From NCBI GenBank assembly GCA_963082975.1, contig OY720350.1, positions 43,974,734 to 44,038,733 of the forward strand: a stretch of 64,000 bases of DNA, given 5' to 3'. The position numbers were made by a program, and so were the translations under genes. How positions within the stretch are numbered: position 1 is the stretch's first letter; each line of letters opens with the position of its first letter. The notes beneath the pieces were generated by a model. That model was not told where the DNA came from and did no database searches. It saw only the letters and a program-made list of their open reading frames with translations. Origin of the DNA: Labia minor (taxonomy: Eukaryota > Arthropoda > Insecta > Dermaptera > Spongiphoridae). Below are positions 8,387 to 64,000 of this stretch, one piece after another.

Positions 8387-9560
8387 AAAGTGCGCTCAAT
8401 AATAATAATTTTAATAATGATAAGTAAGTAAAATATTACAATTAATATTAAGTTATTTATTGTTAAGCGTTAATTAAATATCTTATCAATAAATTTAAAT
8501 CTATATAAATGTTTTTCATTTTTTTACTGAAGTAAAACATTTCACTAAATAAAATAATTGCAATTATATTATATACAAACTAAAAAATTATATTAAATTC
8601 ACTACAACATGGGTCAGCAACTTTTTCTAATCAAAATGATCTAAAATTATATTTTTTGAAAACGTTTATTGTACATTATTGAGAAACTCATTAATAATAA
8701 TCATTATAAAATAGAAATAATTGATAATATCAATAATAATAGTGATAAGATTTTTTTCTTCATTTTTGTTTTTATTTATTTATTTTTTATTTATTTATAT
8801 TTAAAATATTATTTTCAAAACTTGGGTGTATCATTTAAAATTACTAAATGGATCACATTGTGCTGACCTTCGCATTACAATTTTCTTAAATAATTATTAT
8901 ATTATAATTATTGTAATCGATTATATATAATTATTAAATTAAACAAATAAAAAAATATGTTTTTGATTAATAATGATATAATATTAAAATATAAATGTCT
9001 TTAATATTGTTTCTAACTTTCTGAACTCGAAAGTTATTAATCGCAAAATCCTAAATTCTCTAAATGCCTCAATCAAAATCCTCTATTCAATTTCGATTTA
9101 TTTATTTATTTATTAACAATTATTCAGACTTCTATATGAAGTTTGGGATGTTTACATAAATATTAAAAGTTTATTTACATACAAATAATATAATTTAGAA
9201 ATTAACTAAACTATAATTCTTTAATTTTTTATTCGTTTCTTATTCTTGACTTGGTTGATATGTTCTTTCTAATAGTCTTCCTACTTGACACATATATTTT
9301 TCAATTACTTTAGTTGTTCTATTATCCTGCCTTCATTCAGTAGTTATTTGTCAATCCAAGGTTTGTTTACCGGGTTTAACTCTTTTCAAGTAGTCTCAAT
9401 TTATAATTTGGATTATATCTTTATTTTTTTTGTCACATAATCTAATATACATAATCGATTCCTCTCCGGATTACCTTTCACCCAGTCTTATCCCTTATAT
9501 TTTGTTATTGTGGTAGAAGTGGATAATTTTCCTAAAGTACATATGTAGTTTTTTATTTTT
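8387..9560. other. AT-rich stretch, possible decayed hAT MITE
   Basis: At 8611-8629 GGGTCAGCAACTTTT and at 8862-8875 TGTGCTGACC resemble degraded hAT ends (CAGGGGTCGGCAACC type), but no target duplication can be shown. The 65-codon frame at 8669-8866 lies inside this and is composed of low-complexity codons. The rest is A/T-rich, with a GATTTATT-type microsatellite near 9095-9117. Confidence 0.3.
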
Positions 9561-10174
9561 ACCGACCGACGATAGTAAGGGAGGTATTGTTTTCACACCA
9601 AATTTCACATGTGGAGATTTTTACATATCTCCACGAATCATGCATTTTCTTAACAGAAAAAAGTATTTTTAGCATGATGTCTGTCCGTCCGTCCGTCTGT
9701 ATAGATGTGTACAGCCTGAACGACTGAACGGATTTTGATGAAATTTGGTATATTTACTTAATGCATCAGTGGGATGAATTAATCAACTTTTGGTGCAAAT
9801 CCGGAAACCAGAAGTGGTAGTATTAGCGATCGACGATTGGAAGGGAAGGGTTATTTTCATACCAAATTTCACATGAGGAGATTTTTTACATATTATCACG
9901 AATCATTCACTTTGCTTTGGTTTTATACTCGAGAAAAATCATCTTTATTTTTTCTTAATTAAAATTATATGACGTCATCCAGCTATTCATGACGTCACAG
10001 CCTGGTCTTCCTATATATTATAAATAAAATAAAATTAAAAATATTTATGTTATATCCTTATCAGTTTTTTATTACATTAATAGATATATTAAAATTATTT
10101 GAAATTGTTTCTGTAGCTGGAAATTAATTTATTTCAAACCGTCGGTCGGTTCGGACCTGGCCACAGGTCAACTT
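9561..10174 (+). mobile_element. Family B HINE-like element, full length (B1)
   Basis: Starts after a T-run with ACCGACCGACG and ends with the inverted CGTCGGTCGGT, the hairpin GACCTG-GCCA-CAGGTC and AACTT. The GTCC microsatellite sits about 120 bp from the 5' end. The shared core GATGAAATTTGGTA, ATCAACTTTTG is at about 9739-9796. Two TGACGTCA sites start at 9970 and 9990. The architecture is that of a non-autonomous Helentron. Noncoding. Confidence 0.78.
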
Positions 10175-11651
10175 ATTTGGTAATATGGACACCCTTATAT
10201 CTTTCCTCAATTGGTTCTTTCTTTACACATTTGAATTTTTTTTTAAAAAAATCAAAAATTTAATTAAACTCTTTTGCCCTCTTTCTAAACTATTCTTAAT
10301 AACAAAATAAAATAAACATTTCTAAAATATTTTTTTTATTAATATTATTAAATATTTTCTAAAAATAAAATAATTGATTGAATATTTATTTTTAGGGATT
10401 GATGAGGTACAATACTCAAAAAATATAATTTATTATTATTATTATTATTATTATTGACAATTAAATTTAGATATAATAATATAATTAATGAACAAATCTA
10501 ACTTGGAATTTAATGATAATCCTTTAATTCAAAAATAATTTTCACTTATTCAATTTATTATCATAATTTATTCAATGTGTCGAATAAAATAATATATTAT
10601 AAAAATAAAAATTTCATATTTATTATCTATTACAAAAATTTAATTATACGTTACAACGTGGTTCATTCTTGTCTTATATAATTTTTAATATTTCATCAAA
10701 AAGCGTCTTAATCATTCATTTTAAAAAGTACTTCGTTATTCTCTACACACTTACATATATATATATATATAGAATTAAATTCAATATAATCATCATTATT
10801 ATTTCTTTCGTACATGTTTGTTAATATTTTTCTTTTAATTTCTTATTAAGTATGTCGTTGGAATGTCTGTTTATTTGTCTGTTTGTCTTCTAGCGATTTG
10901 TCTTCCTTGTGAAAGGGTTATACAAGTTTTGAGATAAATGTACTTACCGTGCTGAAATCAACCGTGTGCCCGGTTTTTTTTCTGCTGCTAACCTATTTCA
11001 TAGTATCTCTATCTAGATGACCTACCCATCTATCAACATATTTCCTTAGACTTAACAAAATTCACTGTCGCTACCTTTCCCATTAACTTTTAATTAGAAA
11101 AAGCTAAATTTCGGATAAAACTATTATTTCCTTATAAAGTTTATGTAAGTATTTAAATACCAATGTTATTTGTTTCTTGAAATATGCCTACCAATATTTC
11201 TCAATCTTAAAATCGAATATTTTTAAAGGTTCTTCAATCACTTTGAACATTTTATTAGATTCAAAATACATTTTTAAAGAAAAATATTTAACTTTTTGCC
11301 AAATCAACATTAATTTTTCTCTTAAATTAAATAATCATGATCAAAATTATATCTATATCGTATATATTTACACCTATAAACATATATAATATATATATAT
11401 ATATATATTTATAAATATAAATATTTATTTAATTTTAGTAGACAAAATTAATTTCATTATATAATCATATATTATTTTTGAAAATATTTTTCTGATATAT
11501 ATTTATATGTCTTTAATATACAATTTTTACTTATTTGGACAAAAGGTGTATTATACTAATAAAAATAGTATATATATATATATATATTGTATTTTTGAAA
11601 TATTAAATCGCTTTATGATTTTTGGAAATTCAGACCATATAATATTTATAA
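10175..11651. other. AT-rich noncoding stretch
   Basis: Contains (TTA)n at about 10428-10456 and TA tracts at about 10757-10771, 11388-11412 and 11567-11587. A patch at 10850-11060 is less AT-rich but holds no supported frame. The frames at 11177-11389 and 11507-11725 are dominated by Ile/Tyr/Lys/Asn codons and are taken as chance. Confidence 0.5.
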
Positions 11652-13160: not shown

Positions 13161-13268
13161 TGACACTCAAGTTTAAATTAAATCGTATTTAAATTAAAAA
13201 AAATCTGGAGTGTCTCCACTCGACTTTCTTGCAAATTTGAATTGGATTAAATAACATATATTATTTAA

Positions 13269-14006
13269 CCTTTAAGTATACGCGTCATTTCTAACGAAAT
13301 AACGTCACGGGTGGGGTCTGCAGGTATCCCCATACAATTATTGTGTAAAAAAAAGTTTCTATAACATATTTAAGAATTTAAGGTTTATATTATATTAATA
13401 AAACTTTATTTTAATAGAAATAGCCTGTATTTTATTTTTAATTAGTTAACATCAGCCTTTGAAACTTATAACTAAAAAAAGTCCGGCATTTTCAAGGCAC
13501 TTATTTCTAACATAGAATATAAACATAACAATTAATTTCAAAACTAAACAGTCTTATTTTCCTTTAAAAAGAAGTATAATTGTAATATAACACTTAAAAT
13601 ATATGAAAAATGAACAAAAATTAAAATTTTGACAGCGCTAATAACTATCGCATTAGGCCATCTACGAGTTCTACGGGAACACGAATAATTTGAGCATTTC
13701 AAATCTAATGCATCAACTCCTCCTTTAGTGCTATTATAAAATTCTATAATCTCGGGTTTATTTGAAATCTCGTCCACTGATTACACTTTTATTTTTCTTT
13801 GGAACATGAGACACCAATGTCTTCGCTGATATCGCCTTCTTCCTCATCAATCCCCGCTTCAATATCACAGTCTTCATCTTCAGAACTACTAGATTCGGCC
13901 AATATTCTTGCCAAATCTTCGTCACTCAATGGACGATTCATCTTATAAGAATATCTCCAAAAAAACTGAATTATATCAATCATAATATTTATTAAAATAG
14001 TCACGT
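13269..14006 (-). mobile_element. piggyBac-like element, internally deleted
   Basis: The left end follows TTAA (13265-13268) with CCTTTAAGTATACGCG and later GGGTGGGGTCTGCAG. Two minus-strand pieces of transposase remain. One is an acidic N-terminus, MNRPLSDEDLARILAESSSS (start near 13940), followed by an Asp/Glu-rich run. The other is the later segment KPEIIEFYNSTKGGVDALDL, then TRRWP, which is the GGVD region holding a catalytic Asp. The roughly 1 kb that should separate them is gone and the C-terminal frame runs into unrelated codons. The right terminal repeat is not seen before the family A piece at 14012. A DDE_Tnp_1_7-type relic. Confidence 0.75.
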
Positions 14007-14068
14007 ATAATTGGTTTAATAAATATTATTTATTAATTTTAATTTATAATTTAATTAATTTAATTTAA

Positions 14069-14282
14069 CCTTTAACTACACGCGTGGGGTCTCCAGGTAC
14101 CCCATAACGTAGGAAAAAGTGCTCACCTATCAGCATTTATATGACAACCTTCCTTCTCTCAACAGCTCACGTGGCACTATGAGATTAGCTTGAATCGCGG
14201 TAAGCTACAATGTATAAAATCGAAAATACGAAAATAAAATAGCGCTTTGGGTCCGAGTAGACCCCACCCGTGTAGTTAAAGG
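14069..14282. mobile_element. piggyBac-type MITE with TTAA target duplication
   Basis: 214 bp bounded by TTAA on both sides (14065-14068, 14283-14286). Terminal inverted repeats are CCTTTAACTACACGCGTGGG and the complement of CCCACCCGTGTAGTTAAAGG, with a one-base difference. The ends resemble those of the neighbouring piggyBac relic, so it could have been mobilised by that transposase. No coding capacity. Confidence 0.8.
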
Positions 14283-14838
14283 TTAAATTAAATTAATTAA
14301 ATTATAAATTAAAATTAATAAATAATATTTATTAAACCAGCGCATGTTTGGCTCTTTGTTGATGGCACCACGTCACGTGTTGGCGCGTGAGATTTGCAGT
14401 GTTAAAAAATTAATTCTGGTACTTTCAGCGATTCAATCAAGCTGAAACTCTATATATAGCAGTTTTATACAATTATTAATCATGTGAAAAATTATAAAAA
14501 CATATATCTTTATTTTTACGGTCACTTTAGAGGAAAAAAAATCAAAACGTTGTAAGTAATGACCCTCTTCCGGTTGAGCTACATTTCTCAAAAGTTGATA
14601 GAAAACTACAAATTTTGAATAATGCCCATAATTTTGAATAACTAATAAGTACCAAATTTCATCATTCTAGCTCAAACCGTTTTTACGTAATCTTGGTTAC
14701 ATACATACACACATACACACACACACACAAAGAGACAGACATTTTTCTCAACCTTAGTAACCTTCAAAACGTATAAAAACATCAAAATCTCATCATCGAA
14801 AATTTTCGTGATCGCAATACTATCTCTGGCGAGATAGT

Positions 14839-15905
14839 AATAAATATGTGATATATATTGACAATTTTGTATGGTTGCGGAGAGAGATCTCAAATAAGTT
14901 ATAAAATTAAGTTTTAGATTTATAAATCTAACAAATGAAAATATATTACCTACAGACTTTCAACCAAATAATGCGTATTTCTTCGAAGGTACAGGTAGCA
15001 GAACTCCCTGTCTTGATGTGAAGACGATCTGAGTAGCTAGTATGTTTGTATAAATTTGTATTGATTTTAATTTTAATATTTTTTTTTTTTAATTTCCAGA
15101 ATTAATATTTTTGTATACATCAAATTTATTCTGAGTCTATAATGAGATAATCTTTTTAAATCAAGGGGCACTTTTCATTATTAGAAAAATTTTACAAGTA
15201 CTTAAAAATATTTTTATTTTTATTTGAGAAAAAACAAAAAATAGATAAATGAAGTTTATATATTATATTTTACGTTAATAGTATTTTTTTCCAATATATT
15301 ATTCTAAAATAGAATAGATACGGAATATTAATGATACAACCAACCTATTCTCATTCATTCATTCATTCATTAAAATAATACTCATCATTCGATTCCTTTT
15401 AAGTTTATATATTAAATATTAATAATGTGAACTTTCACTTTGTCTATGTTATACTTCTATTTTTTTCATTGAGCTATTTAATGACGAATATTATATTATT
15501 ATTTTTAGAAATTGATATTCAATTTGGAGTTGTTTTTATAGATTTTCAATCTATTCAATATTCATCACAGTATTCAATATTTTCAAATCTATTATTTAAT
15601 CAATTCAATTTATATATATTTTTTTGTCATATCGTAATATACATTACAAAAATTTTGACAGAAAATCTAACATGATGATTCTGGTGTAACAACCGAAATG
15701 CATCAATCACTTTGAAACTTTATCGACGGTTTTTAATAAAAAAATTAAAAAATATATTCTCATTAAGATTAGTATTTTTAAATTTAATAAAATTAATTTA
15801 TCAAAAGTAGAAGCTATTTTTTAAATTGAGAATAAAGATTGTTCTTATGGTGTATTACCCGAAATGATCGTAAAGGAAATACATAAATTTAATATTTTAC
15901 TTATT
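14839..15905. other. AT-rich noncoding stretch
   Basis: Includes a segment at 14945-14975 (CTACAGACTTTCAACCAAAT) whose complement recurs near 50610-50635, and an (ATTC)n tract at about 15353-15371. The 82-codon frame at 15427-15675 is Phe/Ile/Leu/Tyr-rich low-complexity sequence with no family resemblance. Confidence 0.45.
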
Positions 15906-17208: not shown

Positions 17209-17733
17209 TTTAATGTACTTTCAATTATAATTTATTTTAAGATTTAAAAGCAATTAAAGAAGAATTTTTGAATCCAATAAAAATAGTTTTATTTAAATAT
17301 TTTATCGTTTATGGTGAGATGAATGACTCCAATTCTTCTTACGCCAAGGACTCTGATGGACTGTAATAATCAATAGGTATTAGTTATTTAATTGTTATTT
17401 GGAAATATTATGTTATTGATGCAATAATTTAACAAAAAAAGTATTTTAAATTATAATCAGCAAAAGAGGTACTATAAATTTAATCATTTAAGAATTGTCA
17501 TACTATCGATACCTACCCCTTTTAAAACTATTATAGTATTACAATAATTTATCAATTCTTTTTCAACAAAATTATAGAATCTTATTATTTAAACTTTAAT
17601 TAATTTTTAAGATTAATTACTGTAATTATTAATAATATTAATAATAAAAATAATAATAATAATATTGTAATTCAGTAAGAGTAACTCGAGTATTAAAACA
17701 GGAATTCAAAAGATTAATATCCATAATATTTTT
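17209..17733. other. AT-rich spacer
   Basis: An (AAT)n-like tract at about 17630-17665. No gene or recognised repeat. Confidence 0.5.
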
Positions 17734-18323
17734 ACTATCTCGCCAGGGATAGTATTGCGATCACGAAAATTTTCGATATTGAGATTTTGATGTTTTTATA
17801 CGTTTTGAAGGTCCCTGAATCATTTTCACTAAGGTTGAAAAATTGTCGTGTGTGTGTTTGTGTGTATGTAGACAAGATTACGCAAAAACGGATTGGGCTA
17901 GAATGATGAAATTTGGTATATGGCATATAATTCGTAGTTTTCTATTAACTTTTGAGAAATGTACATAGCTCATCCGGAAGAGAGTCATTACCTACCACGT
18001 TTTCATTTTTTTCCTCTAAAGTGACCGTAAAAATAAAGATATATGTTTGATAGTTTTTCACATCATTAAAAATTGTATAAAACTGCTATATATAGAATTT
18101 CAGTTTGATTGAATAGCTGAAAGTGCCGGGATTAATTTTTTAACACTGCAAATCACGCGCCAGCAAGTGACGTGGTGCCATCAACAAAGAGTCAAACACG
18201 CGCTCGTTTAATAAATATTATTTATTGATTTTAATTTATAATTAATTAAATTTAATTTTTAAATATAATATATGTTATTTAATCCAATTCAAATTGCGAG
18301 ATAGTCTTGTGGAGACACTCCAG
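17734..18323 (+). mobile_element. Family A HINE-like element with weakened 3' hairpin (A4)
   Basis: Full-length forward copy with a normal 5' end, GT tract and core. The terminal hairpin reads TTGTGGAGACACTC instead of GAGTGGAGACACTC, which removes two stem pairs. The sequence beyond it (18324 onward) is shared with the copy at 48110. Confidence 0.78.
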
Positions 18324-18530
18324 TTTATTCTTTTTATGGCTATTTTTTAAAAACTTTGAATTATTTGACAATTTCTTAACTTTTAAGAAGGAGGAGACTG
18401 GCGTTTATTTATTAATTAAACAAAGGATTGTTTATTATTTGTTTTTACCTTCCTGTTCCACTCCCATAAAAAATATTCGAATAAAAATTAATTATTCTTC
18501 TATAATTTTCTCCTTTTATTAATTTTTAAA
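18324..18530 (+). repeat. 3' flank shared with the element at 48110 (candidate transduced DNA)
   Basis: About 205 bp after the hairpin end, starting TTTATTCTTTTTATGGCT, is about 90% the same as 48687-48890. Similarity ends near the TAAAAAA run. No other family A copy in the window carries it. The upstream flanks of the two elements do not match. Confidence 0.75.
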
Positions 18531-19356
18531 AAAGACCAATATTAATTGTATTAATTGCAATATATTTATATAAAAATATTTATTTTTAATTGATTGATAC
18601 TATTAGTTAGTTCTGGTCATACATTTATTACCTACCACGTATTGATTTTCTTTCCTCTAAACTGACGTTACGTTCTTCATAAAAAGGTCAATGCTTTGTT
18701 TTTTATTCTCTCGGGGACAGGGTCTTTTATCTATGCCATTTGAGGGGAAACCTACCCCACTTCATTGGCGCTACAACTGATTAATAAGAATTTATCATTA
18801 ATTTCAATGCTATAAAATATTCTTAATTACTTTCAAAATGAAAATCTATCCTGAAACCAATATTTATGTTTCAGAATCCGTTGATCAAAAATTAATCGGA
18901 GCAATACAAAAGGAGTTAGTTACTAAAAGTAATTAATCGCTAATTAATTATATAATTCAATTATATTTCTTCTATACCTTTTAGGGATCCATTGAAATAT
19001 CTATAAAAATTTTCAAAAGTCTATCTCAATAAAAAGTTGATGAAAAATCGACTTCAATTTGTCAAAAGAGCGAACAGATAGACAGAGAGACAGACGCCAA
19101 GTGAAGTTAAGAAAAACGTTATAAAAATGAAATCTATTCTCACCCTCTTATGACAATTATCTTTTATTGTGTGGAAGAAAACCTTCAAAATTTGATGAAT
19201 GACTCTCCTTATACTTTAATGAGCTGTCCATTTATTAAATGATCGATTATAACATTATATTTATAATTAAGTACCGCGATAGAATCAAAATAATAATAAT
19301 TAATGTGTGAGATAACGATTTTTGAAAAACAAGAATACGCATTTCTTGTGTATGTC

Positions 19357-24599: not shown

Positions 24600-25711
24600 T
24601 GCCCCATTTATTTAAATTTGAATTTAATAAACCAAAAAAAAATATGATATAATAAAAAAAGAAATCAATCGGAAAAACTCTTTAAATGAAAATTACAGTT
24701 AGCCTCGGGTTATAGTCAGGAGCAGATATGTGTCAGGGGTAGTGTTAGTGCCAGGATTCTACGGAGCTTCGGAAAACATTAAGTCCAAAATCTTCCACCC
24801 ATTCAATCAAAATCCCCACATCGACTATTAGAGACTCAAATCTCACAATTAAACGTGAAAATAATTCTCAAATTATTTTTCATAATATATATATATATAA
24901 ACAATACTAACTTTATACGATATCATTCTTAATTATTTATAACGTAACTCAATCTCACTATTTTTTGCTGCAAATACTTTGTATGGCTTTTCTTCTCTTT
25001 ACTAATTTTTTCATTTCACTATAAACCTATTTATTATCTAAATTATTCTTTAATTAAATTTATATTAGATATATATAATCAAAAATGGATTTGGAAAGGA
25101 AGAAAAACAAATTAATATTCTCCATGATAATAATTCTTTCATTTTAATTGTAAAACCTTCTGTCACATTACAAAAATTGATTTATTTTATATAATTAATT
25201 AATTTAATTTTTTTAAATTCATTTTTAATATGAGAAATTGATTTATTTATCATTCATATTTTTGTTTTAGAGAACTTACATTAAAAATTCATTATTTCTA
25301 TATAATGATTCTGTTTACTAATTTCTCTCTCTCTCTTTAGGTACTTCATATTTTCCCAATCCAAAATTATAACAATAATTTTTTTTAAAAAAAGCTTCAC
25401 ATGGGAGACAATTTTTCTTCCGTATTCATTTGTTTTTTTATCTTTTTCTTTTGTCACTTGAATAAGAAAAATCAAAATCATAAAAAGGGCCATATGTTTT
25501 TAGTTGAATAAATTCTTATATGGCACTGACAATGGAAACTATTTCTATTAATACTAAAAATTTTATTAATTAATCAAATTCACTAGAGATTTATTATTAT
25601 TATATTATTTTATTTCTATTAATGTTGTTTTTTCACTCTCATTATCTAATATCATTTTGTTATTATGAATAATTAACTCTTCACTAAAATCGAATAAAAA
25701 ATAATATTTTT
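24600..25711. other. AT-rich intronic stretch
   Basis: No gene. A slightly GC-richer patch at 24700-24830 is unassigned. A (CT)n tract lies at about 25324-25338. The minus frame at 25281-25493 is Lys/Ile-rich and has no family resemblance. Confidence 0.45.
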
Positions 25712-26350
25712 ACCGACTGACGATAGTAAGGGAGGTATTGTTTTCACACCAAATTTCACATGTGGAGATTTTTACATATCTCCACGAATCATGCATTTTC
25801 TTAACAGAAAAAAGTATTTTTAGCATGATGTCTGTCCGTCTGTCCGTCCGTATAGATGTGTACAGCCTGAACGGCTCAACGGATTTAAATGAAATTTGGT
25901 ATATTTACTTAATGCATCAGTAGGATGAATTGATCAACTTTTGGTGCAAATCCGGAAAAAGGAAGTGGTAGTATTAGCGATCGACGATAAGAAGGGAAGG
26001 GTTATTTTCGCACCAAATTTCACATAAGGAGATTTTTTTACATATCACCACGAATGTATTGGTTTTGTCCTCGGGAAAAATCATCTTCATTATGTTTTTC
26101 TTAATTTAAAATTATATGACGTCACTCAGCCCTTCATGACGTCACAGCCTCCTTATTATGATCACGGGCAACGCCGGCTACTTCAGCTATATATTATAAA
26201 TAAAATAAAATTAAAAATATTTATGTTCTATCCATATCTGTTTGTTATTACATTAATAGATATATTAAAATTATTTGAAATTGTTTCTGTAGCTGGAAAT
26301 TAATTTATTTCAAACTGTCGGTCGGTTCGGACCTGGCCACAGGTCAACTT
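25712..26350 (+). mobile_element. Family B HINE-like element with extra internal terminus (B3)
   Basis: Full-length forward copy, ACCGACTGACG to AACTT after the GACCTGGCCACAGGTC hairpin. Paired TGACGTCA sites start at 26117 and 26137. Unlike other copies it has about 30 extra bases near 26150-26185, including CACGGGCAACGCCGG and ACTTCAGCTA. That matches, from memory, a 3' terminus common in insect Helitron-like repeats. It may preserve an older end of the family. Confidence 0.78.
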
Positions 26351-26419
26351 ATTTCATTTAAATTTAAATTAATCAAGCTCATAAAGAATGTTTAAGTTTT
26401 ATTTAATTTCAAAATAAAT

Positions 26420-27068
26420 AAGTTGACCTGTGGCCAGGTCCGAACCGACCGACGGTTTGAAATAAATTAATTTCAAGCTACAGAAACAATTTCAAATAAT
26501 TTTCATATATCTATTAATGTAATAAAAAACAGATATGGATACTTAAATAATAAATATAAACATTTTTAATTTTATTTTATTTATAATATATATGCAAGAC
26601 CAGGCTGTGACGTCATGAATGGTTGGATGACGTCATATAATTTTAAATCAAGAAAAAACTAATAAATATGATTTTTCTCGAGGATAAAACCAATACAAAG
26701 TGCATGATTCGTGGTGATATATAAAAAAATCTCCTTTGGTGTGAAAATAACCCTTTCCTTCCTATCGTCGATCGCTAATACTACCACTTCCGGTTTCCGG
26801 AATTGCACCAAAAGTTGATCAATTCATCCCACTGATGCATTAAGTAAATATACCAAATTTCATCAAAATCGGTTGAGCCGTTCAGGCTGTACACATCTAT
26901 ACGGACGGACAGACGGACAGACGGACAGACGGACGGACAGACGGACAGACATCATGCTAAAAATACTTTTTTCTGTTTAGAAAATGCATGATTCGTGGAG
27001 ATATGTAAAAATCTCCACATGTGAAATTTGGTGTGAAAACAATACCTCCCTTACTATCGTCGGTCGGT
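26420..27068 (-). mobile_element. Family B HINE-like element, full length (B4)
   Basis: Reverse copy facing B3 tail to tail, 69 bp away. It has an expanded GGAC/GACA tract at about 26902-26950 (GTCC/GTCT on its own strand) and TGACGTCA sites starting at 26608 and 26628. It shares private features with the copy at 29109, namely a deletion next to CTCCTTTGGTGTG and an AATAAATATAAACATTTT insertion, so those two are sister copies. Confidence 0.8.
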
Positions 27069-29108
27069 AAAAATATTATCATGTTTATTATTTACGTTTT
27101 CGGTTTACGAATTACATACTTATGTCGATGATGTCATTCTTTAAGTGGATTATGTTATTTTTTTTATTACTTATAGGAGCAAACGAACCAAAAAGTAGTC
27201 CATCCTTTCCGCTTGGAAATAACTAATAATTTCTTCTTACTTACTACAAAAGCCGGTGGTTGTAAAACAAAAAGTGTAATTAATCATTTTTTTTTTATTT
27301 GTTTTATTAATAATCCATTTAATTATAAATAATATAATATTATTTAGAGAAGAAAAAAAATACCTATTTCCTTGTAAATAAATTTTTCTTTTCCCATTCT
27401 ATCCAAGTGCTCCATAGCATTGTAACCTCGATTTTAAATTAATCATTAGGTTATTGATAATTCTGAAAATTTGGCAACAAAAGTATAAAAATTAATTTCA
27501 TTCATCGAATAATTGAATGTATCAAATATAAATTAAATATATAGTAAAAATTCGAAAATTTAATTTACTTATATTTTTTTTCAATTCATTTTCATATTCA
27601 TATTAATATATTTTTAATTATGTTTAAGTCAATTAGTATCTTAGTGGAATTGAATACCACCTAATCGCTTAAAAAAGTTAGATTTTTTACAAATTCTATT
27701 AAAAAAGCAATATTATTAAAAAAAAAATAGCAAAATAGAAAAGTTTGTACTTTGTTAAAACTTCAAATTCGTAAATGCTTTAATCATTTAGGATTTTAAT
27801 TACATTTTATTTAATTCAACGTTTTCTTTTCTTTTCAATTAAATTCCTAAATAAAAATTGATAAAAACTATCCCTGATAGATTCATCTAGCTTCACTTTC
27901 TTTTCATTTTTTAATTTCCTAGATAATTTATAGATTTAAATGGACCGTTGGGAAAGTAAATATGCATAAAACGATATATATATATATATATGTATATTTA
28001 TATGAGAAAAGGAATATCATTTTAAAAAAATAATATTATATAATCACACACACACATCTAATACGATTTCTTTTTTCCACATAATATATTTATTTTTGTT
28101 TATACATAAATATTTAATAAAGAATCTTTATTAAATTGATTATATTGAAATAAGAGAGGGATAATAGAAATGTTTTTTAAGTATTTAGAAAAAAAAACTG
28201 TCAATTTCGCGAGTAGTATGACATAATTTTAAAAGTAAATAAATCCTAACTATTAAGTGAATCCAAGATTTCGTGCTCATAGGCCACGATTAAAACTTTA
28301 ACCAATAAATGAAAAATATGAAAGATTATAATTTATTAATTCAGCTGTCTTCCTTTTAACTTTTTATTTATTTGTTTAGTAGGTGAAATGGAATGTGATG
28401 AAATTTCAATGATTCATTTGAGAGATTTTTATAATTTCAGTTTGAATTTATAAATGAGCACATATTTGATATTTATGAGAAAAATTAACAAATAAATAAA
28501 AAATTTAGATAAGTTGCTTTATATATATTTTCTTATTATTAAAGTTACTTTTTTCTCAAATATGTAATAATCTATTTTCAAAATTTTAGGAAAAATAATT
28601 ATTTATTACTATACAAATAGATATAAATATTGATTTTAAATAGTTAATTGAATTTAAAATAGCTTTATTCTTTCATAGTAAAAAGAGTGAACTTTAAAGT
28701 TTAAAAAAACTGAATTTTTTTTTATTTTTCAAAAATTCATATAAATATATTATATATATATATATATAAACATGTTTTCAAAAAAAAAAAAATACTTCTC
28801 TTATTTTACCATCTTAATTATAAGTTATACTTTTTCTCAATTTAAGCTTAACAAATTTCTTTTTCTAAAGAAAGTATGAAAGAATGAAATGAAATTATAA
28901 TTTTTTATAAGTTTAAATTATTTTTTTTAATTATAAAAGAAATTTAAAAATAAAACAATTTTTATATTTTCTGTTTGATTTATAAATTTTTTTATTTTAA
29001 ATTTCAATATAAATTTGCTTCATTTATTTTTTTCAATCTTTTTCAATTAATAAAGTTAAGAAAATATATTTTAAATATTTTAACATTATTATTTAATATT
29101 AAATTTTT
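27069..29108. other. AT-rich intronic stretch
   Basis: Two kilobases without a gene or recognised repeat. Holds TA tracts at about 27975-27991 and 28747-28768, a CA tract at about 28047-28056 and several long A/T homopolymers. Confidence 0.45.
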
Positions 29109-29745
29109 ACCGACCGACGATAGTAAGGGAAGTATTGTTTTCACACCAAATTTTACATGTGGAGATTTTTACATATCTCCAGGAATCATGCATTTTCTAA
29201 ACAGAAAAAAGTATTTTTAGCATGATGTCTGTCCGTCCGTCTGTCCGTCTGTCCGTCCGTCCGTATAGATGTGTACAGCCTGAACGGCTCAACCGATTTT
29301 GATGAAATTTGGTATATTTACTTAATGCATCAGTGGGATGAATTGATCAACTTTTGGTGCAATTCTGGAAACCGGAAGTGGTAGTATTAGCGATCGACGA
29401 TAGGAAGGAAAGGGTTATTTTCACACCAAAGGAGATTTTTTTATATATCACCACGAATCATGCACTTTGTATTGGTTTTATCCTCGAGAAAAATCATATT
29501 TATTAGTTTTTTCTTGATTTAAAATTATATGACGTCATCCAGCCATTCATGACGTCACAGCCTGGTCTTGCATATATATTATAAATAAAATAAAATTAAA
29601 AATGTTTATATTTATTATTTATGTATCCATATCTGTTTTTTATTACATTAATAGATATATTAAAATTATTTGAAATTGTTTCTGTAGCTGGAAATTAATT
29701 TATTTCAAACAGTCGGTCGGTTCGGACCTGGCCACAGGTCAACTT
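29109..29745 (+). mobile_element. Family B HINE-like element, full length (B5)
   Basis: From ACCGACCGACG after TTTTT to AACTT. The GTCC/GTCT tract is at about 29229-29266, TGACGTCA sites start at 29530 and 29550, and the hairpin GACCTGGCCACAGGTC lies at 29725-29740. Closest to B4 in the window. The 81-codon frame crossing its 5' end is incidental. Confidence 0.8.
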
Positions 29746-30929
29746 ATTATATTTAATTTTTCTATTTTGGAAAACTGACTCACTTCTTGTATAATAAATA
29801 AAATAATTTTATTTAAAATTCTATATACAATTAATTATTTATTTTTTATATAGAAATATAGCAATATATATAAGATATATAAATAAAAAAGATAAAAAAC
29901 AAATCAAAGAAAAATATATATTTTCTCTTGTTATAATGGAATTTTTATGATAATAAAAATATTTAAAATTAAATATATATATAGATATATATTATAAATT
30001 TAAATTAGAAAAACAAATAAAAATAATTATAAATGTGAAATATATTCATATTCGATACAGATTATCCATTAACCTTGTATATTTATAAAAGTATCTAATT
30101 TATTTATTTATTAAAAAGATAATTACCTATTTACTTGTTACATGAACACTTTATATATAATTCGTAACATTGATTTTTACATTTGATTAACATTTATTAT
30201 TTATATATTTGTTTATTAACATTTTATTTATATGGGTTTATGAGATTACTTCATAAGTATAAAGTACTTAGTTCCTACTCATTTTATCATTGTACAGAAT
30301 ATTCAATAAAAATGTAAATAATTTCGAATATCATTAATTAATTTTTATGCTATATTATATTATATTTATTGAAAATATATTCCCATTTTTTGAAATTAAT
30401 AAATTTATAATACCTAAATAAATACCTTACGGCTTATGAAAGTTGATTTGTGATTGCAGATTAACTGCTTAAAAATTATTTACCAGGAAGTATATTATAT
30501 TAATAAAAAGTTAAAAAAAAAATAATCAAATTAATTAATTAAAATTAATTAGTATAACAAAATAGACCATTTCATTATTAAATGAGTTCGGTTCCTTTGA
30601 TAGAAAGAAATTTCAAAATTTGTACCAATTAAAATTTCCAAATTTTTAAAAAAATATTTATAAATGTTTGTATATGTTTGTTTTGAAGCTGTATGCAAAA
30701 GTATTCCAATCGAGATAACAAACTGTATATGATAATTTGATATTTCTTTATACATATATAGATAACTTAAAGATTAATTTCTTTTTATGATATAATATGT
30801 GTGTTTGTGTGAAATAATAATGTTTGAGGTGAGTTAGTGTATAAGTTTTAAATTTTACATATGGATTATTCCTCTAGCTGGATTCTCAGTCACAAATTTT
30901 ACAAATGTAAAGTTCAAATTAAAAAAAAG
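29746..30929. other. AT-rich intronic stretch
   Basis: No gene. The minus frame at 30549-30755 has no recognisable motif. Mostly A/T with short TA runs. Confidence 0.45.
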
Positions 30930-37845: not shown

Positions 37846-38093
37846 AAATTAAGTACTTTAATTATATAAATATTAGAAACTTAAATAAAAATTTCTATAT
37901 TTTAAAAATTATGGGTATGAATGCTAAAATCAATATTTTTATATTCACTAAACAAAATAATATGACATGTTCTTTAAACTGAAGTAGATATCGAATGATA
38001 TGTGAAGTCTAACATATATTATTATCAAAAGTTTTAAATCAAATAATAATTTCTGGATTTTTGGGAAAAGAAATTGTTTGAGGAACTATTTTT

Positions 38094-38689
38094 ACCGGCC
38101 GACGATAGTAAGGGAGGTATTGTTTTCACACCAAATTTCACATGTGGAGATTTTTAGAATCAAGCATTTTCTTAACCGAAAAAAGTTTTTTTAGCATGAT
38201 GTCTGTCCGTCCTTTCGTCCGTCCGTATATATGTGTACAGCTTGAACGGCTCAACGGATTTTGATGATATTTGGTATATTTACTTAATGCATCAGTATGA
38301 TGAATTGATCAAATTTGGTGCAAATCCGGAAACCGGAAGTGGTAGTATTAGCGATCGACAATAGGAAGGGACCAAATTTCACATGAGGAGATTTTTTACA
38401 TATCACCACGAATCATGCACTTTGTATTGGTTTTATCCCCGAGAAAAAAATCTTTATTAGTTTTTTCTTAATTTAAAATTATATGACGTCATCCAGCCAT
38501 TCATGACGTCACAGCCAGGTCTCACATATATATTATAAATAAAATAAAATTAAAAATATTTATGTTCTATCCATATCTGTTTTTAATTACATTAATAGAT
38601 ATGTTAAAATTATTTGAAATTGTTTCTGTAGCTGAAAATTAATTTACTTCAAACCGTCGGCCGGTTCGGACATGGCCACAGGTCAACTT
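38094..38689 (+). mobile_element. Family B HINE-like element (B7)
   Basis: ACCGGCCGACG to AACTT, with a hairpin carrying one change (GACATGGCCACAGGTC). Small deletions lie near 38155 and 38370. TGACGTCA sites start at 38484 and 38504. More diverged than B4/B5. Confidence 0.78.
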
Positions 38690-39779
38690 ATTTTTATGAA
38701 TATACAAATTAAGGAAATTGCTATGCTATGAATTGTAGAATGAAGGATATTCATTATAGTTATTTTTTATTCAAATTTACAGACACCCAGGGGGACTAAC
38801 CTTAAAACAAAATACTCAGATCGTAATGTATCATTTTTTTTTTTTTGAACTACTGATCAACTTTTCGATGAATCAGTTACTATTCTTTTATGTTCTATCT
38901 ATGATTTTATTTTAATTTTGTAAATGATATGATTCATTATGATAGTTTTTTTAGAATTGTAAAACACAATTGGTATTAATATGAACTTTGGAGAATTTCT
39001 TCAATGCAAATGCTCTAAATAGTAGGCGTGATGTAATGCTTTGGGGCTACCCTGTTAATCGGTATGCAATCTCCCGGTTATGCAACACCAAAGGCGGGTG
39101 CTGGGGTTGCCTCCACATTGGCCCATCATCATTTGCCCTCCTTTGCTTGTGTCCCACAAATTATTCGATTAATTAGCTTATATAAGTTTCAATCTTTCCC
39201 TTTCACAAATCGTATTATATCGATCAAGTTATATTATATTTTAAAGTCTCCTGTCGATCGAGAAAGAACAATCTTTTTGACAGATCTTGATGAAAAGCCA
39301 ATGATAGAATTTATATATATATATATTACTGTTTTATAAAATGGAATAAATATCAGCGGTATTCGAAAGTTTTTTTTTTTTTTAAATCATAAGTTATTTA
39401 ATAATTTTATTGATGTTATATACTAATTTTAATTACTCATAATAACTATTTTATTTAAAAAATACTTTTATATGAGAAGGTACCAAATATGGAGAAAAGT
39501 GTTCAATGAACTCTGTTAGTTATCGTAATTGCACCATAACCCCTTCACAAAGGTATTATACTCACCTAATAATTACACTTGTAACGGACAAAGTATTTAT
39601 ATTCTTAGTTATTTAATTTTTATTATACATTTTATTTTGTTTATCTATTTTTTTTAGTTTATTTTGTTTTCTATTCTCTTTTATTAACAAAGTTATTTAG
39701 TCGCATTATTCTTAAAATGTAATATATATATAGATATTATATTTCACATAAGGGGAGGGACCATCCCTCCAAGTTTTAA
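38690..39779. other. AT-rich stretch with one GC-richer island
   Basis: The island at 39020-39165 (GGCTACCCTGTTAATCGG, CCAAAGGCGGGTGCTGGGG) has overlapping short frames, such as QSPGYATPKAGAGVASTLAH, but no suitable splice acceptor in phase with the upstream exon. It could be an unrecognised repeat or an exon of another frame. The rest is A/T-rich. Confidence 0.35.
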
Positions 39780-43400: not shown

Positions 43401-44773
43401 TGGAGTTATTGATTTATCAAAAAACTTAAATATAATAAACTTCTACAACTAGACAGGAGGAATAGGGCCACTTGACAAAGGCCTAGTACAAAGAGACCTT
43501 AAAAATATATCTAAAAATAATGAAGGATCAAATAATTTTGTATTTATTTATTATACTGGGATAGCATAAAAAGAATAGGAACTTCAAAAATATAGTATAT
43601 ACATGGCTATTTTTTTAATATTAGAGGGGGATTTGACTTTCTTGCCCAGGGCTCTCAAAAAGTTGATTAAGATCCTACGAGTATGACATCACAACAAATA
43701 TAGAAAATAATAAAAAATTAATTAATTTTAAACATTAAAAATTTAATTTAACTAATAGTGGAAAAATTAATTTAAAAAAAAATACTAAAAAATATAAAAT
43801 CACTATAATGATTATTTAGATATAAACTTTTTGAAAAAACAATCTTCAATAATAAATTTAATAGTCTTGGAGAGATTGGTGGTTGGTGGAGCATATGTAT
43901 GTTTTATTTGGGATATATATAGAAAAAATTTATGAAAATTATATTATAGGATATTAATTTATAAATAGTTGAAAAATTATAATTATTCAATTGTTATTGT
44001 ATAGGTCAAATCACAATTTATCCCAATAAATTAAAAAAAAGAAAAATTTCTATTTGAAGTAAAATTCCAAATTATATAAATTGATACTTATTGATTATCA
44101 TATCCTGTTAACACTAATTATCTTATCTCAATGTATGTGTGAGTGAATTAAGAAGGCGTTCTATGTTTTGATTCCATTTCTCTCCTTCCTCGCACCCCCC
44201 CCCCCCCTCTCTCAGGCTTTCTTTTCGCAATTTGCATTTAGCGAACGCAAGTAGCCAAAGGATTGGGCAATATTTTTATTACCTAAATTGTATGATAATT
44301 TTTTTATCATTATCACAATTATGTAAAAAAAAAAAATAATAAATAAATAAAAAATAAAAAAAGTGTCATCTTGACATCGTGACATTAAGGAATATACTTC
44401 ACATTTGTTGCTGTTGTTTTGATATGCAACGAAAGAAGAATTCCCTTATTTTATAATCGAAATGAGAAAATAGTAATATATACTTACTTTCCTTGAAAGG
44501 ATTTGTAAATCAATCTTCAAATGAGAGTATCATTTCATTTCTGTGTAATTTATTTCCAATGTCATCAAAAAAAAAAAAATAAATAAATAAATACAAATAA
44601 ATATTACAATTTCATTAAAAGTAATTATTGAATTATTTTTTTAAAATATATATTTAATTATTTTTATCTATATAAAATATTATAATCAGAATTCATATAA
44701 AATTAAGATCAATATTTATGTGTAAATTACCTTTCTTATTTCCCCCTCATCCCCAACATCATTATTCAATTTT
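43401..44773. other. AT-rich noncoding stretch
   Basis: Includes a GC-richer patch at 43450-43510 (AGGGCCACTTGACAAAGG) and another at 43620-43690 (TTGCCCAGGGCTCTC) that might be ends of a decayed TIR element. A C run lies at about 44196-44208. No gene. Confidence 0.4.
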
Positions 44774-47072: not shown

Positions 47073-48109
47073 ATTTTTAATTTTTTTATTCCATACTACA
47101 AAATAAAATTATAAAAATTATTATATAATTTGATAACTAAATATCTTTATTTTCATTATCTTCTACAAAACTACGCGAATTGAATTTTATTGAATCTTTG
47201 ACCTGAATCTCACTTCGATTTATATGATAATGATTGTATTTTATTTTTCAACTAATATTAAAAAGATGAAGTAATAATTGAAAATCTTAAAAAAAAATCA
47301 TTTGAATTTAATAAATTAATGTAAATCATTGAATAAACTAAGGAGTGGGGTAAAGTAGCCAAACAACCAGTCGTGATAAATTGGATTCACTGGCGCCAAA
47401 GATGAGATCTAGGAAGAAGGGAGATATAATCTTTAATATAGATGTTACTTAATCCTCTTTGTGAATATCCAAAAGGTATGAAGAAGCTTAATTTATTTGT
47501 AATAAGCCTATATATATATATGCGTACATATGTTTATAATTTCGATAATATGACGTACTTAGTACCACCCAAAAAAATATAAAAAAAGCTGGATTGTGCA
47601 CCAGAAACCTTAAGAAATTATCATTTAATAATATTATTAAAATAATAATTAATTTTTTTTATTATTTAATTCTTGACAATTTATAAGACACATCTAAAAA
47701 TATTTTAAGAAATTACTACTTTGCAAAAATCATGAAATTGTATATCTGATTGGTTTTCAAATTATGATTAAAAAAATAAAAAAAAAACCTCTGACTTGTC
47801 CGTCCTACGCAAGGACAACGCCTATGAAGTCGGTTATATCAATGAGGTGTCCTATGATCAGTAGAACGGGTCCTCTCAACCTTTACCTTGATTTTCTTGA
47901 TCGGAGGCGCTACTTTTTATCAAGTAGCTATTCCCCAATGTTGATCCCGGAGGCTGGGTTGACTCCGTCCCATAGACCCCAGGCCCAGGACTTTCAAATT
48001 ATCAATAGTATGAATAAATTTTTTAATATGATAATTTTAGAATAAACTGAATTATATATATATATACCATATAAAATGATTATTAACCCTTTCACTCTTT
48101 AATATTTTT
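47073..48109. other. AT-rich stretch with one GC-richer island
   Basis: The island at about 47790-48000 (TGACTTGTCCGTCCTACGC ... CGGAGGCTGGGTTGACTCC) stands out in composition and carries a 93-codon frame without recognisable motif. Neither strand gives a known family. It may be a SINE or other repeat, or a decayed coding fragment. Confidence 0.35.
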
Positions 48110-48686
<577 letters not shown>

Positions 48687-48890
48687 GTTTATTCTTTTTA
48701 TGGCTTTTTAAAAAACTTTCAATTATTTGACAATTTCTTAAATTTTAAAAAGGAGCAGACTGGTGTTTATTTATTAATTAAACAAAGGATTGTTTATTAT
48801 TTGTTTTTACCTTCCTGTTCCACCTCCATAAAAAATATTCAAATAAAAATTAATTATTATTCTATAATTTTTACTTTTTTTACTTTATAA
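48687..48890 (+). repeat. 3' flank shared with the element at 17734 (candidate transduced DNA)
   Basis: Starts GTTTATTCTTTTTATGGCT and matches 18324-18530 at about 90% over about 205 bp, including AATTAAACAAAGGATTGTTT. It ends just before the reverse family A element at 48896. Confidence 0.75.
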
Positions 48891-48895
48891 AAAAT

Positions 48896-49468
48896 CTGGA
48901 TCTCGCAAATTTGAATTGGATTAAATAAAATATATTAATTTAAATTAAATTAATTAAATTATAAATTAAAATTAATAAATAATATTTTTTGAACCAGCGC
49001 ATGTTTAGCTCTTTGTTGATGGCACCACGTCACATGTTAGCGCGGGAGATTTGCAGTGTTAAAAAATTAATTCTGGTACTTTCAGCGATTCAATCAAGTT
49101 GAAATTTTATATATAGCAGTTTTATACAATTATTAATCATGTGAAAAATTATCAAACATATATCTTTATTTTTACGGTCACTTTAGAGGAAAAAAAAATC
49201 AAAACGTTGTAGGTAATGACCCTTTTCCGGTTGAGCTACATTTCTCAAAAGTTGATAGAAAACTATGAATTTTGAATAATGCCCATGTACCAAATTTCAT
49301 CATTCTAGCTCAAACCGTTTTTGCGTAATCTTGGCTACATTCATACACACACACAGAGAGAGAGAGACATTTTCCTCAACCTTAGTGAAAATGATTCAGG
49401 AACCCTCAAAACGTATAAAAACATCAAAATCTCAACATCGAAAATTCTCGTGATTCTGGCGAGATAGT
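48896..49468 (-). mobile_element. Family A HINE-like element lacking the hairpin (A12)
   Basis: Reverse copy with CTGG directly joined to ATCTCGCAAATTTG, so the 17 bases of the hairpin are deleted. The remainder is intact to the 5' end TCTGGCGAGATAGT at 49468; its 5' hairpin has also lost bases. Confidence 0.76.
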
Positions 49469-50769
49469 AAAAATAATAAAAAAAAAAATAGATTCGGTGA
49501 TTTAATTAATAAGAAACCGGTCATATTAAATCAATTGGGACCCAACCTACACAAATGATTAGCTAATCTCATTAACCAATCGACGGCTCTCATGCAATGA
49601 TGAATGAAAAACCAATTAAGAAAGTAAATCGGTAAATGAATTGGTCAATCACCCCTCCATCCCTTTAGTGTTACCCCTCCCTCCTTTTATTTTTAATTAA
49701 TGAGCATCATTCATTCATTTTGTCGTTTTACATTTCAAGTACCTATTAGAAATTCGACATGAAATGTAGCGGTATTTCCTTTTAATTAATCGATAGTAAA
49801 TAAAAAAAAATCGTGCTAAAAATGTTTCTTCCTTCTTCTTTTCTTAAATTATTATATTTCGGAGTTTTTTTTTTTCATTAGGAGTAATTAGTATGCAAAG
49901 TCTAACATGTTTTTTGACACTAATTTAATAAAAAGTTGTGCTTTAATTTAATTAAATTTGATCTAATCCCTTTAGGGTGAATTTTGACTTGGATCATTTT
50001 AAATTGCTGTTTTCTTTTATTTATTTAAGATTAATTATATTTAATTACAAAAATATAAAATAAATCCTATTGAATTGAATTCTATTCTCCACGGCTTTTC
50101 TTTTACTCAGGGTTCATTGATCTCAATGCAAAGGTAATTCACGGGTCCTGTACCGCTCCTTTAATGACTAGCCGGAGGCCAGCAACCTCTTCATTACTTC
50201 TCTACTCACTCTTACATAATATTTATAAATTAGGGATCATCAAGGAATAATATGCAACATAGGACCAAAGTAGAGTACCTGATGTAAAATGATTGAGCAA
50301 CTCTTAATCTTCCATACATTGCTTTAATAGACAAAATAGCTTATAAATATATAATAATAATATTAGTTTGTTATATAAATCAAACTTGCTTTGTGTGCAT
50401 TTCGGTAGTTACACCATCTTCTTCTCAACTTTTTACTCAAAGTGATCATATTTCATCAACTAGTCCCTAAATCTATGATAATTGATAATTTAACTCAGTG
50501 ACAAGACCCGTTGAATTATTTGTAAGTAGCTGCTCAGTCCGCCTTCAGCACTCTTTGCACTCTTCAGGCCCTACCATCTGTAATCCCGATGTATTATAAT
50601 ACGTATTATTTGGTTGAAAGTCTGTATGTAGTAGGTTTTCATTTATTTTATTTTTAAAACTAAAACTAACTTTTTTGACCTATCTGATCTCCCCACGATC
50701 GTACAAAATTTAAATAAATTAAAACATTTTTTTTTTAATTTAAATATAATTTAATTTCAACTTGTGAGT
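49469..50769. other. AT-rich noncoding stretch
   Basis: Patches of moderate GC at 49545-49690, 50090-50220 and 50525-50600 have no open frame of note or known repeat signature. They could be conserved noncoding or single-copy DNA, but nothing more can be said. Confidence 0.4.
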
Positions 50770-50905
50770 CATAATAATGGAGGTACGGAAAGTATTGAAT
50801 GTTCCTACCGAGATTAGATTTAATCTAATGTATTATAATTAAATATTCAAATTTCAAAGTATTATAATTTAACTCATATTTATGAAATAATGAATAGCAA
50901 GTCCA
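50770..50905 (+). repeat. Dispersed repeat shared with 12885-13160
   Basis: AAGTATTGAATGTTC, GAGATTAGATTTAATC, ATAATTAAATATTCAAATTT and AACTCATATTT follow the same order as on the minus strand of 12885-13160, without the ~110-bp middle of that copy. Diverged and noncoding. Confidence 0.55.
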
Positions 50906-51070
50906 TTTTCAAAATTGTATATTTTAATTGCATATAATTACATGTATTAAAATTTAAACAAATCAAATATTCTAATTTTTAAACTTATATAAAATTTAAT
51001 ATTGCTTTTTATTAATAAATCATCACAAAAGAGAATTTATTAAACATAATAAATATAAAATAATTTGATC

Positions 51071-51416
51071 AGTTGTCAGGCACAGAACCAACCGACGATT
51101 TGAAATAAATTAATTTGAGCTACAGAAATAATTTCAAATAATTTTAATATATATATTAATGCAATAAACATCAGATATGGATATAACTTAAATATTTTTA
51201 ATTTTATTTTATTTATAATATATAAGGAGGCGCTGTCTGTGACGTCATGAAGGGTTGGGTGACGTCATATATTTTAAATTAAGAAAAAAATTAATGAAGA
51301 TGATTTTTCCCGAGGGTAAAACCAATACAAAGTGCATGATTCGTAGAAGAATGTAAAAATCTCCAAATGTGAAATTTGGTGTGAAAACAATACCTCCCTT
51401 ACTATCTTCGGTCGGT
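51071..51416 (-). mobile_element. Family B HINE-like element, internally deleted (B8)
   Basis: Both ends are present (degraded 3' hairpin at 51071, ACCGACCGAAG-type 5' end at 51416). The microsatellite and core between about 51335 and 51345 are lost. TGACGTCA sites at 51240 and 51260 are perfect. Confidence 0.75.
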
Positions 51417-52277
51417 AAAAAGAAACCTTTTAATAAATTATATAATATATTATAATATAATTATACAAAATAATATTTTTTTAGACTTTTGAGTTTAGTA
51501 GATTGTATTACAATAATTTTATATAAAATCTTGGGTTATAAATCAATTTATTTATTAGCTAGTACTATTAAAAAAAAATATTTATTATTTAATAATTTTA
51601 ATAATTATTTTAATAATTTTATTTATAGAGAAGAAAAAATATGAATTTATGTGCTTCCAATTTAAATTTATTGATGGACAATTGGCGGTTTGTCTATTAA
51701 TTTATTTCATTAAATAAACATATTTTTGGCCTTGGATATAATAATAAAATATGAAGTATCTTTATTAAAATATATTACATAAAACCACATAATTTTACTT
51801 AAAATATTTAATACTATATTTAACTCAACATTCCAATACAAATAATTCAATCATAATATCAATTATGCGGTTTTAAGTGTTTTTTTAATAGTAATGATAA
51901 TACTACAGTAAAAAAAATCACTTTATTTATTAAATAAATATTAAAAATATCAGTCCTTGAAACTTTAAATTTCATTATCTTATTTATTTCAAATGAGTCT
52001 ATCTATATATTAATATTTATTATTAATTTGTGTTTAAGTAAATATTATTATAAAAAAACATTTCTAATATGTAATAATAATAATAAAAGATATGTTAAAT
52101 ATGATGAAATATTTTATTATTATACTAAAATTCTTTTGAAAATCTTACAAATGAAAAATAAATAACTATGAATTGTAATCATTGAAAGATAAAATAGTGT
52201 AGGTATGTGTACATGTTAGAGAAGTTAGTATATATATTTAATGAAATATATTGGTTTGGTAATAATTTTCAATATGA
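51417..52277. other. AT-rich noncoding stretch
   Basis: No gene or recognised repeat. Confidence 0.5.
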
Positions 52278-62499: not shown

Positions 62500-64000
62500 T
62501 TTTTACATATTGGAGAAGCACCAAGCTTCGAAGAATTAATATAGGGGGTGCTACAAGCCCTGAAATGCACCATCTTCGACGCCGCCAGAGAGATGTACGC
62601 CACTTCAGCGAGACGCCATGTTCATTCATTCTTGGTTTGAACATACATTGAAGCACATCATTGCAGGACATCAGTCCACATCATCGGATTTCTTTGAACG
62701 TGTATCATAACACATTAAATGTTTATGTTTCATTAAAACACATCAATAAATATTATATTATTTGCAAGCATTTGATTTATAAACATTTATTCATTTCACG
62801 TTATTTCTCCAGATTACATTATTACAGATCACAACAGCTTTCTTCAAATAATTCGTCAAGCATACACACATCATCCTTACATTTGATCCAATTGAGCCGG
62901 ATTCATCCAGTATATTCAATATTTAGTTCAATCGAGCTAGATACAGCAAGTAATTCAACATATTGAGACGAATCATATTTGAGAAGCAAAAAACAAGCCG
63001 AGAAATCCGAAAACAGTATTTGTATCTGGAGAAATTGAGCAACTTGATTTAACAAACAATTAATATTTGTTGCTGGAATTAATTTGTGCGGTAAGTCCTT
63101 TTCATTCCTTTCATTAATTCATATAATTCATTATAGTTGCATAATTGGTGTAGCCTTTATTCAATATGGAATTGCAGCATTTAAAAAATTCAAGAAAATT
63201 AATAAAAGCACAATTGACTAAATTCAAAAATTATGTTGAGTCCATACAAACTTTCGACCAAGAATCAATTATTCAATCAGTAGATCGTTTAGAAAATTTT
63301 GAATCAAAATTCGAAAAATTCAATACAATTCAGGATCAAATTGAACTGAAATGTATTGATAACGAGGAATCTTTCGAAATAGAAATTGAGGAACGATCTA
63401 CTTTTGAAAATCGTTATTTTGCATTAAAATCCAAAATTAAAAAAGCGGTTCATGAATTTGAGAGAGCGTCTGTCGTTAGGCCAGACGCTGATGTAATTAG
63501 CTTAGCATCATCGTCCTCTAAAAATCAATTCATACAATTACCTACCATAGACCTACCTAACTTCGATGGGAATTTTAACAATTGGCTCGAATTCAAAGAT
63601 GCATTCTCAGCTCTAATTGATCAAAATGATCAATTATCTGAGGTTCAAAAATTATATTATTTGAAATCAACTCTAAAGGGGCGGGCTTTAGAAATTTTGG
63701 AATCAATGAAGGTCACGGCTCAAAATTATAAAATAGCATGGGATCTTCTTAATGAAAGATTCGAAAATAAAAAATTATTAATTCACAATCATGTAAAGTC
63801 TATATTTGAACTGCCCTCACTACAAAGAGAATCGGGGAGCCATCTACAGATGTTACATGATGATATAAACAAAAATTTAAGAGCATTAAAAGCATTAGGT
63901 GAACCAACTGATTCCTGGGATACATTATTAGTTTATTTAATTTCATCAAAATTTGATAGTAAAACCAGAAGGGATTGGGAAATACAGACAACCAGGGTCG
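62500..64000 (+). mobile_element. BEL/Pao LTR retrotransposon, 5' part, runs off the window
   Basis: Fossil by convention, though it looks whole as far as visible. Parts: a probable 5' LTR and leader (about 62500-63165, exact LTR borders not resolvable because the 3' LTR lies outside) and the beginning of the gag-pol frame from an ATG at 63166. That frame is open without interruption to the window edge, about 278 codons. The protein starts with a charged coiled-coil-like region, followed by the gag segment annotated as DUF1759 in BEL/Pao elements (recognised from family resemblance). No breaks are seen. Probably young. Whether the pol part is whole cannot be judged here. Confidence 0.75.

Follow-up and report, generated by a model that had tools for sequence, protein, structure and literature searches.

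The window, by which we mean the whole stretch of 64,000 nucleotides of Labia minor DNA that was analyzed, contains 19 merged match intervals of an element family of about 600 bp, here called family A, which together cover 8,065 of its 64,000 bases. For comparison, twenty places were drawn at random and a 4-kb stretch was taken at ten of them; family A accounted for 730 of these 40,000 bases. The family is abundant genome-wide and, by this small sample, several-fold denser in the window. The genome searched was an assembly of 604 Mb in 71 contigs, and we read the genes and repeats of the window as eukaryotic in character.

Full copies of family A start with TTTACTATCTCGCCAGAGATAGT and finish with GCGAGATAGTC-GAGTG-GAGA-CACTC-CAG, the terminal sequences being ACTATCTCGCC...GCGAGATAGT. 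They carry inverted subterminal repeats of 10 bp, ACTATCTCGC on the 5' side and GCGAGATAGT near the 3' end. The 5' repeat is itself palindromic; an inverted copy of its 10 bases lies near the 3' end, ahead of a hairpin. The usual 3' palindrome, GAGTG-GAGA-CACTC, gave a predicted DNA fold of -3.6 kcal/mol (z -2.0), and a TG microsatellite lies inside the element. The 3' flanks are T-rich, with a mean of 8.7 T in 12 bases over 61 ends (A4 and A11 included, and in a sample biased towards A11-like ends) against a window background of 4.5. For one copy, a paralogous empty site was found, which indicates insertion into a T-run without target duplication (Table 1).

These features resemble those of HINE/DINE-1 elements, which have been described as non-autonomous Helentrons (Thomas et al. 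2014, PMC4067079). In the sections of that paper used here, the common features are short, partly palindromic inverted subterminal repeats, a palindrome near the 3' end, an internal microsatellite, a T-rich target, and no evident coding capacity. The same sections give an inverted repeat of 12-15 or 13 bp for HINE/DINE-1, compared with 10 bp in family A, and a distance from repeat to 3' end of 38-60 bp for mite families, compared with about 18 bp (PMC4067079). Judged by its sequence, family A is built like a non-autonomous, HINE/DINE-1-like rolling-circle family of the Helentron type, and we infer a rolling-circle route for its movement. A search of Rfam gave no match, and scans of bacterial, archaeal, and viral contigs gave nothing.

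Table 1. Features of the window discussed in the text (positions are those of the window)
Feature	Position	Strand	Remarks
Element A4, HINE/DINE-1-like	17731..18323	+	5' palindrome 17734-17753; 3' inverted partner GCGAGATAGT at 18296-18305
A4 3' hairpin region, TTGTG-GAGA-CACTC	18307..18320	+	
Shared segment behind A4	18324..18533	+	homology firm to 18509; last bases A/T runs
Element A11, same family as A4	48107..48687	+	TG array in place of internal part near 5' end
A11 3' hairpin region, TTGTA-GAGA-CACTC	48671..48684	+	
Shared segment behind A11	48688..48894	+	
Element A12, inverted	48896..49471	-	deletion in 3' hairpin region; 3' end where A4/A11 similarity stops
Paralogous empty site of the A copy at about 13204-14841	50571..50878	+	one clean case
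Second family, about 650 bp	9554-10178, 25705-26354, 26416-27075, 29103-29748, 38088-38692, 51058-51418		

Two of the elements, A4 and A11, share one orientation and are separated by 30.4 kb; both are adjoined by the same ~185-210 bp, which begin at the first base past the canonical 3' end and are 92-95% identical. Element and segment together occupy C9:43992464-43993266 for A4 and C9:44022840-44023627 for A11. Alignment of 18324-18530 with 48688-48891 gave 91.8% identity over 207 columns (E 2e-81); the other matches of the segment in the window were two, of 25-28 bases. According to the initial annotation, A4 and A11 alone carry this sequence of ~205 bp, and searches of the assembly place the segment at these two loci only. 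DNA searches, which skip very common words, returned two candidates for the segment, both of them scored and identical to the A4 and A11 loci. When the A11 end plus segment was used as query, the segment was present in two of 40 scored matches (856 candidates). A 34-nt core pattern allowing up to three mismatches had two matches assembly-wide, and the controls had 0 and 0. The donor locus and the several further copies of element plus segment that had also been predicted were not found in these searches, nor was the segment found as a normal part of many copies with intact hairpins.

Two simpler identities of the segment were rejected. The first was a normal tail of the family: the remaining 38 of the 40 scored matches (856 candidates) consist of the 3' end of the element plus at most about 41 bases, mostly T-rich, and the flanks of 28 of these 38 were inspected. 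The second was a dispersed repeat: no third place appeared in the assembly searches.

On the 5' side, homology between the flanks of A4 and A11 is limited to 7 bases (TAATATT), after which they are unlike. The best local alignment of about 510 bases of 5' flank scored 43; 200 random window pieces had a median of 36, and at least 10 of them reached 51. The annotated difference of the 5' flanks beyond a few bases was thus confirmed. With A copies masked, no longer colinear block was found between the two regions, and with sharing that ends at 7 bases, a segmental duplication with long shared 5' flanks was rejected.

At the other limit, the segment probably ends as given in Table 1, to judge from the alignment: of its last 21 bases, 19 could be aligned and 15 of these were identical, which 69 of 3000 random pairs also reached. 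Similarity in A11 breaks off one or two bases short of A12, whose terminal CTGG begins at 48896. With A12 at this position, the common 3' limit does not count as independent evidence. The 3' flank of A12 has the usual T-rich form, so that A12 was most likely inserted later, into an A-run. An earlier true limit near CTATAA, similar to an ordinary end, is faintly suggested by the T-rich runs past this motif (7-9 T in 12 at cuts 18504-18518 and 8-10 at cuts 48864-48877, against the ordinary-end mean of 8.7), in a post hoc comparison within a segment that is itself T-rich.

Searches of the assembly with the flanks yielded no empty site of the A4 or A11 composite. The tail beyond A12 had one candidate, itself, and the tail after the A4 segment shared with other places only a widespread motif of 40-50 bases (40 scored of 265 candidates). 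The 40-base motif at 18627-18666 also occurs inside A copies and in many places of the genome, at 90-98% identity among the same 40 scored. The A4 5' flank had 16 weak matches elsewhere, mostly A/T-rich, the best at 73%. The A11 5' flank runs, up to 47982, through the end of a high-copy repeat. This repeat end (47850-47982) is very uniform, 39 further places among those scored (of 899 candidates) being 96-100% identical, and lies ~124 bases before A11; among 40 scored of the 899 candidates, matches extended at most about 10 bases into these ~124 bases, which does not by itself prove them unique.

Elsewhere in the genome, a second pair of A copies with a common 3' flank was observed at locus L025 (C9:37615624-37618684; 3' ends 1539- and 370-). 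One copy has a TAGTG arm and the other a GAGTG arm, they are 1.2 kb apart, and they share ~82 bp of 3' flank at 83% identity, with what we read as another HINE-like element in between. Flanks shared over short distances may thus have other causes here. When 48 3' flanks were compared all against all, the remaining matches either were short or A/T-rich or did not begin at the start of the flank.

The bodies of A4 and A11 are 93.9% identical over 442 aligned bases (K2P 0.064), and the segments 93.1% over 203 aligned bases (K2P 0.072), or 94.6% over 184 (K2P 0.056) when the last stretch is left out. This equal divergence of body and segment suggests joint duplication. Combined with a segment that starts at the canonical terminus, unlike 5' flanks, and no longer colinear block, it supports duplication of the element and its 3' neighbour DNA as a unit whose 5' limit is the 5' end of the element. 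The kinship of the two copies is closer by some measures than by others. The nearest of 45 other copies to A4 is A11; the nearest to A11 is the copy at L011, followed by A4. Their identity ranks 260th among 1035 pairs, which is not exceptional for the family, and they share 5 rare states, tied 5th among the same number of pairs. A tree of 46 of the 61 3' ends (15 were dropped for coverage) did not resolve A4 and A11 as sisters, with a bootstrap that had not settled.

This kinship bears on a reading in which the segment was duplicated beforehand, and two A elements were inserted independently at the same T-rich site beside it. The unexceptional identity of A4 and A11 agrees with it, as do the T-rich sequence 3' of A ends (in the biased sample of 61) and the same ~80-bp flank behind two different A copies at L025. 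However, the identical base would have to be hit twice, the body and segment are equally diverged, the 5' flanks are not shared, and A4 and A11 agree in 5 rare states as well as in the TTGT arm. We consider independent insertion very improbable.

We regard 3' end bypass, or read-through, during transposition as the best reading of A4, A11, and the segment, and as moderately probable. At first, an A copy with a normal end would have occupied a T-rich site next to the future segment. In a later round, copying would have begun at the 5' end, failed to stop at the 3' end, and run on for ~185-210 bases of adjoining DNA; insertion of the read-through product elsewhere would have followed. A4 and A11 could then be donor and product, in either order, or both could be products, with A12 most likely arriving later at the end of the segment in A11. 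The close spacing of A4 and A11 and their weak sisterhood speak against bypass, as does the segment itself, which has no obvious hairpin: no unusual fold that could represent a new terminator was detected within it (z -0.99).

The bypass of 3' ends in Helraiser and Helibat was reportedly studied by Grabundzija et al. in 2016. Helraiser is a canonical Helitron, in which the 5' end is essential and the 3' hairpin acts as terminator; flanking DNA went along in about 11.7% of events when the hairpin was intact and in at least 36% when it was missing, according to the part of the study drawn on here (PMC4778049). By analogy, an ordinary A element might overrun its end without any defect. As far as that part of the study goes, A4 and A11 resemble Helraiser and Helibat in having a fixed 5' end, an overrun 3' end, and flanking DNA carried along; the new ends in bypass have no palindrome, and none is evident in the A4/A11 segment (PMC4778049). 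The element and the adjoining 3' DNA do occur together behind a fixed 5' end, and it is from these two copies that movement is deduced. Helraiser differs in being an experimental system with canonical Helitron ends, and the same part of the study describes no clustering around donors among 701 retranspositions, in contrast to the 30.4 kb between A4 and A11 (PMC4778049). For HINEs, capture of host sequence has been proposed as likely in the sections cited above (PMC4067079), and narrow literature searches brought up no HINE case of exactly this kind by title or abstract. As read-through capture by Helitrons is already known, A4 and A11 are a plausible small example of it. The pair illustrates compactly, in a natural setting, how fragments of host DNA may be dispersed by small Helentron derivatives; as a single event with two copies, it changes little in the field.

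The main rival, owing to the distance of 30.4 kb, the single orientation, and the absence of another copy from the searches, is a local duplication without transposition. A piece of ~0.8 kb, comprising the segment with the element or its 3' part, would have gained a second copy 30 kb away, either through faulty replication or repair or because A copies recombined or underwent gene conversion; its 5' breakpoint would be masked by the repeated A sequence. No third copy was found in 604 Mb, and the two different A copies at L025 have their common ~80-bp 3' flank within 1.2 kb. The 5' part of A11 is uninformative: as it consists of TG repeats, a breakpoint could lie inside the element. The array itself, an uninterrupted (TG)48.5 at 48126-48222, replaces the part behind the 5' palindrome, and the copies at L009 and L012 start similarly. 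Against a local duplication, the 5' limit coincides with the 5' end of the element, of which the first 20 bases or so are intact in A11, and no other sequence is common to the surroundings of A4 and A11. Whereas the closeness of A4 and A11 favours duplication, the exact 5' end favours transposition, and we consider local duplication unlikely, if still a serious contender. A further scenario, bypass followed by insertion of the HINE read-through product near its donor, appears unlikely to us. If true, such local reinsertion would set the family apart from Helraiser, whose reported behaviour is episomal and non-local, and might be one reason why A copies are so dense around the window.

In the initial annotation, the overrun was ascribed to a hairpin change, GAGTG to TTGTG, unique to A4 and A11. 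In the window, the change does set these two apart. Of 15 rows, 13 had a readable left arm (the arm of A12 is lost, and the row at 44771 has no genuine 3' end); A4 has TTGTG, A11 has TTGTA (and CCTG for CCAG), and the other 11 have GAGTG (10) or GAGTA (1). In the genome, the uniqueness is lost, as the 28-mer TTGCGAGATAGTCTTGTGGAGACACTCC with TTGTG has 16 exact occurrences. In the 15 copies besides A4, the segment is absent, and the end CCAG (13) or CCAA (2) is followed by flanks unlike one another and unlike the segment; a recognisable element 5' end lies upstream in 9 of the 15. Among 48 ends, in a sample biased towards A11-like ends, the left arms were GAGTG (17), TAGTG (9), GAGTA (8), TTGTG (4), and others (10).

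A weakened hairpin as the cause of the overrun in the A4/A11 lineage would agree with the TTGT arm of both copies and with their predicted folds, -2.9 kcal/mol for A4 and, through another pairing, -2.1 kcal/mol for A11, against -3.6 kcal/mol for the usual end. In Helraiser, hairpin loss raises read-through, as reported in the part of the study used here (PMC4778049). The 15 other TTGTG copies argue otherwise: they end canonically with unrelated flanks, so that elements with this arm have transposed with normal termination. Among the sampled ends, arms such as TAGTG and GAGTA are also common, and a shifted 5-bp stem (TGGAG-ACA-CTCCA), with the fold of -2.9 kcal/mol, is still available to A4. 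On the tree, the TTGT labels need about 7 changes, at least 4 of them forced by supported branches, with the TTGT copies nonetheless clustered (0 of 500 shuffles were as low). Of the annotated account, duplication of the element with its 3' neighbour DNA as a unit is supported, while the hairpin change is not supported as the cause and does not alone account for failed termination. We consider this cause improbable; a raised rate of read-through in TTGTG-arm copies is possible.

Other repeats were observed in and near the window. The second family of about 650 bp (Table 1) has many copies in both orientations, which are 77-97% alike. Finally, a direct repeat of 371 bases is found at 62511-62881 and at 2186-2556 of locus L034, with 98.4% identity and a spacing of about 3.7 kb. 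A long open frame starts at 63154 between the two repeats, which resemble the ends of a young LTR retrotransposon.
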